DNA of 64,000 bases from Protonemura montana. Taxonomy: Eukaryota > Arthropoda > Insecta > Plecoptera > Nemouridae. The position numbers and the translations under genes were made by a program. Positions 7,401 to 10,400 of this stretch are shown piece after piece. The stretch lies in assembly GCA_947568835.1 (NCBI GenBank), contig OX387605.1, forward strand, positions 744,001-808,000, read 5' to 3'. Below the pieces are notes generated by a model, which was not told the origin of the DNA, did no database searches, and saw only the letters and a program-made list of their open reading frames with translations. Every line of letters begins with the position of its first letter. The stretch's first letter is position 1.

Positions 7401-10400
7401 GATGTGTTCCCAGGAAGGAGCGACGGCAGGCCACCAAGAGCCACAAAGAGCAACGTAGGGAGGTGCAGGTGCAAGAGTTGATGCAGTTGAAGGCGTTGAA
7501 GCGCAAGGAGATTCAGGATCGCATCGAGGCTCTCAAGAAAGTCACTGGCAACGACACGCTGGCTTTCCAGGTACGATGCTAGCGTTGAGTGCAGGTTCTC
7601 GGTGGAGAAACAACGTCAATGTTACAGTCTCTGCGTGAAAGATGGCCGCCAAATGACTACCTTACCGACAATAATGCAGAGTACCGGAACGTCACGTTAA
7701 GTGGAGCCACTGTCGTATGAAATTTAATTTCGATATTTCTCGTAGGTTAACTCGCTTTTGTAACTTTTTACGCTCAAAAGATCTCCGTCAATGTTTACCT
7801 CAACGATTGATAAACATGTGACATATTTAAAAGGGAGTAACCTACGATAAATATGATATATTTGCAGGACTCTGACGTTGAGGGAGAGTTTGACCCGAAC
7901 AAACACGACGCACGCATGCAGTCGCTATTCAACGACCCGTTCTACGCAGACAACGCTGACGACAAGAAACCAGAGTTCTCCGATCTCGACGACGATGCTG
8001 ACATGGAGCGCTGGGATGATTACGGCCAATCAGGGGCCAGCGTGGGCCAAGCTGGCCAATCAGGATCCAGCGTGGGCCGAGCTAGCCAATCAGGATCCAG
8101 CGCCGGTCAAGCTAACCAATCCGACGACCGGGATGAAGCTGGTGACGGGGAAGAAGAAGAGGTTCACTGTGAGGATTCAGAGTTCAACATGGATGCTGAT
8201 TATGACCCAACTACTGGTAAGCAATTGTCATTATTAAAGTTGTGTTATACAAATAGGTTCACGTACCGATATGATTTGTAACTTGCTTTTAAAACAGCAA
8301 TCAAGTGATTCATTACAAGCCAACTAAAGCAGCAAGGTACGTACATTGTTTGTATAGAATTACAACATTACGAAAACATGAGATTTTAGTTCAAATACAA
8401 ACAACTAGTCAAACAATCTCGTGCTTTAACAAAAACTATTTCAACTTGGTTTTCAATGCTAAGTGAAGAACAACTAAATTTCCCAACGTTTTGTAACTTG
8501 TACCTGTTACTTTATCAAGGGTTAGAGCAGTCCTGACAATTTTCCAATAACAAGAACAACATAAATAACAAGTGTAAAAGCAATCATAATGAATCTCTAT
8601 GGGGAGAAACGTGGGAAGTTGGAAGATTGATTAGCAAGACTTCGAGAAAAGAGAACAACTGGAGGCTGTAGATTACATTTTAGGTAATTGTTATAATTTT
8701 GTGTGGTTCTTTTGTTATTGTAAAATTGTCAGGACTACTCTAACCCTTGATAAAGTAACAGGTACAAGTTACGAAACGTTGGGAAATTTAGTTGTTCTTC
8801 ACTTAGCATTCAAAACCCAGTTGAAATAGTTTTTGTTAAAACTAGTGCTAAGTTTACATCAAGTAGACATGAGTCTAAAAACCATCATAGTACTAAGCAC
8901 TTGTTTTAACAAAAACTATTTGAAATGGGTTTTCAATGCCAAGTAAAGGACAACTAAATTTCCACAATTTCCAGAACAATTTAGTTGTTCTTCACTTGCC
9001 ATTCAAAACACATTTCAAATAGTTTTTGTTTTTGAAAAGCTTGCCTTGCTGTCCTGCATTGCGCTGGTTGTCTAACAAGATGCGCTGGTGTTTCAGCTCC
9101 CGCTAAGTCCAAGCGCCAGCGCAAGCGCAAGATGCCGGTTCTCTGGGCTGCGCTGGCAAAACCTCACCCGACCTTCGACCCGGCTCACGGCACGTTCGAC
9201 GCGTTCGTTGATGAGTATTACAAGATGGACTTTGAAGACATCATCGGGGACCTGCCGTGCCGGTAAACAAAACTTGACTCCAGTGCACGGCCAACTTCAT
9301 TTGTTATTAACAACACTGTAAACATCTCAAAAATAGATGCCCAAACCCCGATCTCCACCTGTCGCGGGTGTTGCTCTAACTTTTGTTGCTGAACTTTAAA
9401 GGCAAAGATCTTGATCCATCTTGATCCACCCTGTGTTTGAGTCACTACCAGCCTGTGATTTTCTTGATGTGTTTTTCAGGTTCAAATATCGCCAGGTGCC
9501 GCCGAACGACTTTGGTCTTTCAATCGATGAGATCCTAGCGGCCGATGACAAGGAGTTGAATCAGTGGGCGTCACTCAAGAAGGCCGTGCGTCTGCGTTCT
9601 GAAGCGGCGGAACGTAATGACCAAATCAGGTGAACCAACTTTACTACACCCCAAGCTTGCCCACCGGACAGATAAATTATTGTTTGCACGGTGGGTTTCA
9701 GTAGGTTTAGAGATTTCTGCAACTTTTGAAACTTTACAACTGTCTTCAGCGCCGTAGTATCTTTAGTAGGTCAACGCCCTAACACTTCCCCCGACCCCCC
9801 TGGCCCGACCCCCCTGGCCCGACCCCTCTGGCCCGACCCCCCTGGCCCGACCCCTCTGGCCCGACCCCCCTGGCCTGACTAGACCCACGGTAAACAAGTT
9901 CAGTTTCCTCGGTGACAACTACTTTCAACTGTCAAACTCTGCTGACCACAGAACTACCAACTTACACCCTACCATCCCAATGCTACCAACTAAACTGCAA
10001 CATCTCGGCACTTGTTGAGAAACTCACTCTACGTCTTCTTCTTCTTCTTCTTCTGTAAGTTGAACCTGATTCGTCTTTAACACAACATAAACCACGTAAG
10101 TGTGCCATTAAATAAAAGCAGAGTTTATTCCGGTTAAAATGAGTTTTGGTGAAGTGCATGTGAATTGGCAGCCAGAGCCTTCTATCAACAATCACCCAGA
10201 AGGCTCTGAGTCGGCCATTTTTGTTGGCCACTTGAAAAATAAGTGCGGTCTTTGCATGCAAACTTAAAACAACCATCAAAATTGTATTCACGTTCATGAG
10301 CGACTTTTTAAAATTGCTCGGCGGTCGTTCCTGCGATCTTGGAAATTACATCAACAATGTGCTCTGTTTTGTTTTGATTTTGTTTCGAAGGGAAAAACAC

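Follow-up and report, generated by a model that had tools for sequence, protein, structure and literature searches.

A foldback MITE family in introns of KRI1, muskelin and other genes of Protonemura montana

The foldback MITE copies found in the window are best explained, with a probability of roughly 0.85, by ordinary insertion into existing introns, followed in KRI1 by a later loss of the second arm. The window, i.e. the whole stretch of 64,000 nucleotides analysed here, covers positions 744001-808000 of contig C3 (27.2 Mb) in a genome of 258 Mb. From direct observation we describe the element family, its ends, the length of its target duplication and the anatomy of the introns that carry it, and we infer that these introns most likely predate the element. 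Introner activity in an animal would be notable, and our checks favour ordinary MITE insertion. Of lasting use is the definition of the MITE family, with its ends, its 7-bp target and its half copies with clustered breaks.

The element family and its target sites

In the window and in the loci fetched from elsewhere in the genome, the family is a foldback MITE of approximately 423 bp with ends CGTTGAGTG, and 423 bp is also the modal length, found in 17 of the 31 distinct full copies. The end sequence of the full copies is CGTTGAGTG[T/C], and two arms of approximately 170 bp surround a loop. Terminal inverted repeats are present, both ends being CGTTGAGTG-like in the 31 distinct full copies. 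Arms within a copy align at 94.7% on average and arms of different copies are 94.6% alike, i.e. approximately 5% different, among 30 full copies (L030 was left out as too diverged). Homogenised arms were considered and rejected, since arms within a copy are no more alike than arms between copies.

The consensus, 421 nt long, has a longest stop-free stretch of 41 codons. The family is more abundant than expected by chance: a 30-base arm core is found 1092 times in the genome by exact match, against none for the reversed control; for the exact 15-base ends the numbers are 2037 and 0. With its short length, inverted arms and ends, fixed-length target duplication and high copy number without coding capacity the family is like other MITEs, and no difference in kind was found. 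Along contig C1 (33.1 Mb), the 82 arm-core matches comprise 16 in 0-2 Mb, 4 between 2 and 28 Mb and 62 past 28 Mb. Among the 100 exact ends listed, a list that stops short of the far end of the contig, at least 23, 23 and 54 fall in the same zones. Towards either end of this contig the density of the MITE is higher, yet it is also present in the middle. Arrays of the terminal ~42 bp of the element adjoin some copies (L009, L011, L013, L019, L021 and L024), as though by multiplication of the ends.

The flanks of the 31 full copies, which are partly dependent in that L008 and L059 have common flanks, and among which L011, L045 and L055 adjoin element-like ends, reveal a 7-bp duplication with the consensus G-T-[AT]-n-[TA]-A-C. 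The 7-mers to the left and right of a copy are identical at 73.7% of positions, compared with 46.5% after shuffling, and match on average at 5.16 of 7 positions; for lengths of 4-6 and 8-10 bp the agreement is about that of chance. The duplication matches at 7/7, 6/7 and 5/7 bases in 6, 7 and 9 of the 31 copies, where shuffling gives expectations of 0.5, 1.2 and 3.2, and at merely 3 or 4 of 7 bases in 9 copies. P elements and their MITEs (PMC1562414) likewise have inverted ends, and MITE relatives are found in an arthropod genome; the target duplications given there are 8 bp long, in contrast to the 7 bp found here. A P-type element was rejected on this duplication length, as agreement is 73.7% at 7 bp and, for 8-bp flanks, 24.6% against 21.0% after shuffling.

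Copies in the window

KRI1 intron 5 (7571..7867, forward strand) is 297 nt long, has GT...AG splice sites and is flanked by Kri1 family matches on either side. The two flanking exons, when joined, give a single Kri1 family match (E 5.2e-23), and when they are searched singly the similarity reaches the splice sites. The original prediction that the element fills this intron from about 12 bp past the donor was borne out: blastn to the consensus of the 31 copies places the element at 7583..7854 of the forward strand (90.9%, consensus positions 151-421), with a gap of 12 nt to the donor and of 13 nt to the acceptor. The same prediction took the element to be palindromic, which it is not. It is a half copy made up of one arm and the loop, its second arm is missing, and the fold of the intron RNA lies near background (z -1.71). 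This intron, 92% of which consists of an element fragment, is the most extreme case. Because just 25 nt of non-element intron are left, the element probably now supplies the branch point.

In muskelin, the joined exons around introns 5 and 6 align across both junctions (E 7.4e-67) to the solved muskelin structure (PDB 8ttq). Intron 6 (19681..20181, forward strand, 501 nt) contains a full-length foldback copy at 19690..20109 (forward strand; 93.6% to consensus positions 1-421), with a hairpin of -341 kcal/mol (z -35.6). This intact hairpin of 420 bp starts 9 nt past the donor, ends 72 nt before the acceptor and occupies 84% of the intron, in good agreement with the 80% and 10 bp that had been estimated; removal of the element would leave 81 nt. 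No matching target duplication was found at this copy. Intron 5 of muskelin (18444-19402) contains a half copy at 18461..18700 (forward strand), 17 nt past the donor and 702 nt before the acceptor, where a copy about 20-40 bp after the exon 5 donor had been anticipated. A copy had also been placed about 16-30 bp before the acceptor in a GT31-type gene, and a half copy truncated at both ends was indeed located there (1630..1852, reverse strand), 329 nt from the donor and 19 nt before the acceptor. The exon downstream of this intron matches Galactosyl_T (E 2.2e-6), and the segment upstream of it has no family match. Half copies account for three of the four window copies, and all four copies lie within the first 25 kb of the window.

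Origin of the introns and closeness to splice sites

The following history would account for these observations. The element is a non-autonomous foldback MITE, moved in trans by a putative transposase, and it inserts at GT[AT]n[TA]AC through a cut staggered by 7 bp. Its copies in the window most likely landed in introns that already existed, the order of events and the age of the introns being what we infer here, and in KRI1 the second arm, possibly together with some native intron, was probably lost after insertion. Copies in introns were probably tolerated because they are removed along with the intron.

Genes with matches to protein families were found beside copies outside the window, namely HIG_1_N (L006), Nup84_Nup100 (L008), LRR_8 (second segment of L014), NDUFS1-type 4Fe-4S (L015), protein kinase (L028), ARID (L054), E1-E2 ATPase (L056) and Transferrin (L059), and the L047 copy has a TipE gene (E 1.7e-116) at a distance of approximately 200 bp. 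The EST1 match beside the copy in L025 is below its cut-off. No Pfam family was found for the coding segments at L005, L050, L033 (two), L032 (two) and L031, and for that at L023 the sole Pfam match is below the cut-off; none of these was counted as a named gene. Around several further copies there is no coding segment within 500 bp. In L006 (HIGD1) an acceptor lies approximately 46 nt from the element, and this locus enters none of our counts.

Both splice sites were located in eight introns, including the four of the window. Outside the window, the gaps between donor and element and between element and acceptor are 33 and 131 nt in the LRR gene of L014, 110 and 93 nt in the unnamed gene of L033 (splice sites read from motifs alone), 24 and 492 nt in the SERCA-like gene of L056, and 105 and 366 nt in NUP107 (L008). 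The non-element remainder measures 25-719 nt across the eight introns, and in none of them does the element or its duplication form a boundary. This remainder holds in-frame stops in all six introns for which the frame of the gene was used, and in KRI1 such a stop falls within the 12 nt that separate the element from the donor. The duplications that can be placed lie inside introns: GTACGAC on both sides of the L033 copy, and GCAGTAC and GCAGCAC at L014.

Introner families derive their splice sites from one of three sources, namely the element, the duplication or the neighbouring exon (PMC9860276). Our family resembles them in that the element is repeated in introns of several genes and in its inverted repeats and short duplications, which some introner families also have, and differs in that the element ends lie off the splice sites, variable native intron is left and the placeable duplications are intronic. 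An introner origin, in which insertion of the element into coding exons made the introns, with splice sites from the element itself, the duplication or nearby exon, would be in line with the 92% element content of KRI1 intron 5 and with a target motif that starts with GT. It would also fit the sequence CAG followed by GTACGATG, which stands beside the element in both KRI1 intron 5 (7568-7583) and muskelin intron 6 (19678-19690), 12 kb apart. The combination of GGTACGATG at most 8 nt from CGTTGAGT occurs at two sites in the genome, which are these two introns, and approximately 0.07 sites would be expected with even base use, a value that is too low if such targets are preferred. A donor carried as part of the element was rejected, since the combination is present genome-wide at just these two introns. 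Genome-wide, AGGTRAG lies at most 30 nt upstream of 15 of the 2037 exact ends (two of these matches have the same flank start and possibly represent one event), and its reverse complement upstream of 5. The 15 distances are 2, 6, 7, 15, 17, 17, 19, 19, 21, 22, 23, 24, 24, 25 and 26 nt, without a single offset, though 12 of them fall at 15-26 nt. The variable remainders, the in-frame stops, the intronic duplications and the lack of a fixed donor offset all argue against the introner origin that the original prediction had raised, and we consider it highly improbable. The check that it had put forward, for duplications across exon junctions, returned the intronic duplications of L033 and L014 and no matching one at muskelin intron 6. 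Its other suggestion, selective survival of MITEs in introns, holds in so far as insertion into introns fits the data, but special selection is not needed; positions in the four non-window introns are compatible with uniform insertion.

Uniform insertion was assessed by assuming that any position of the native part of an intron is equally likely and calculating the probability that a gap does not exceed the one observed. For the three informative window introns the p values are 0.24, 0.05 and 0.115 (0.041 when combined), and for the four non-window introns 0.41, 0.92, 0.097 and 0.45 (0.41 when combined); all seven informative introns together give 0.093. KRI1, where p = 1 by construction, was left out, and with it the combined value is 0.166. 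In a coarser rank test, the distance of each copy to the nearest coding segment was ranked among the non-coding positions of its own locus. The nearest tenth contained 12 of 43 copies, including all four window copies, and without the window copies 8 of 39 (binomial p 0.037). Kolmogorov-Smirnov (KS) p values, window copies included, were 0.105, 0.044 and 0.028 at thresholds that ranked 47, 43 and 36 copies. The input for the rank test consisted of 52 copies, those left unranked being in loci without a coding segment; duplicates (L001, L003, L008, L012, L016, L035, L037, L039, L043, L044, L051 and L057) were left out, as were the distinct copies of L011 and L034 and the small fragments of L024 and L033. 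Among 65 distinct flanks of the fetched loci, in a scan that misses L014 with its mutated end, AGGTRAG within 40 nt was found in one. In the window the copies are notably close to splice sites, a closeness that elsewhere appears only weakly or not at all. The excess in the nearest tenth is weak and leans on the window that raised the question.

Several of these results count against ordinary insertion, namely the position of all four window copies in the nearest tenth together with that of 8 of the 39 others, the p value of 0.041 for the three window introns alone, the 9 of 31 full copies with poorly matching duplications, and the 15 donor-facing against 5 reverse-facing motifs, the last of which also fits some donor preference. 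Part of the closeness is expected if the copies sit in introns, the donor-facing excess is expected if some of them do, and short native introns, such as the 81 nt of muskelin intron 6, are part of the reason why the window copies look near splice sites. Insertion targeted to the vicinity of splice sites, for example by the donor-like target GT[AT]n[TA]AC or by open DNA next to exons, would explain the orientation of the motifs near the 2037 ends and the non-window copies in the nearest tenth. This seems unlikely to us, as the four non-window introns fit uniform insertion, a strong donor is found in a single local flank, some donor-facing excess was to be anticipated for intronic copies, and the two motif matches that begin with the same flank may not be independent. 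We regard as similarly speculative that a target overlapping the donor would lead to landing at or just inside existing donors, with the element then replacing lost native intron, as the 25 nt left in KRI1 and the element as branch-point source would suggest; if true, donor-side landing and takeover would amount to transposons replacing introns from within, not creating them. Copying between neighbours, compatible with insertion, has somewhat better prospects, although we would still call it doubtful: repair or conversion tracts overrunning the element would have moved short flanks between loci. In support of it, the copies at L008:1351-1773 (NUP107) and L059:4151-4573 (transferrin-like), approximately 14 kb apart on contig C5, have 19 bp of one flank identical and are alike at 12 of 14 bp of the other, while their sequences differ beyond. 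Together with the KRI1 and muskelin copies this makes two pairs, approximately 12 and 14 kb apart, with common flanks in otherwise different loci. Such copying would account for the common donor flank of KRI1 and muskelin and for the poor duplications, and the flanking 7-mers agree at 5.16 of 7 positions although arms of different copies differ by approximately 5%. However, there are just two pairs, the match between KRI1 and muskelin includes the constrained donor, L008 and L059 may have inserted into copies of another short repeat, and arms within copies (94.7%) are no closer than arms between copies (94.6%). The two pairs pose a testable question, that of repair-driven copying between palindromic elements.

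Half copies and other repeats

Half copies were found in KRI1, muskelin intron 5 and the GT31 intron, and at L010, L013, L017, L034, L050 and L056 with its duplicate L057; the latter two have identical flanks and were counted once in the comparison of breaks. Counted from the kept end, their breaks fall at approximately 235-271 of 421, shortly beyond the loop and at differing bases, and these breaks might reflect failed hairpin repair. Other truncations break elsewhere (L021 at 148 and a second copy in L034 at 172), and the copy in L019 has an internal deletion and has not lost an arm. The possibility that half copies are a mobile form in their own right, with a distinct end, was rejected, since the right breaks compared differ and there is no common end.

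The window also contains several tandem repeats. Units of approximately 52 bp occur at 880-1350 and 16000-17040, which by eye we take to resemble part of a tRNA, and units of approximately 91 bp at 2820-3300, presumably similar to part of 5S rRNA, likewise by eye. A 41-bp minisatellite is located in a KRI1 intron (6655-7357) and, inverted, approximately 15 kb away in muskelin (22552-24443). From 54945 onward there is a very long 27-bp minisatellite, with more than 300 copies in register.
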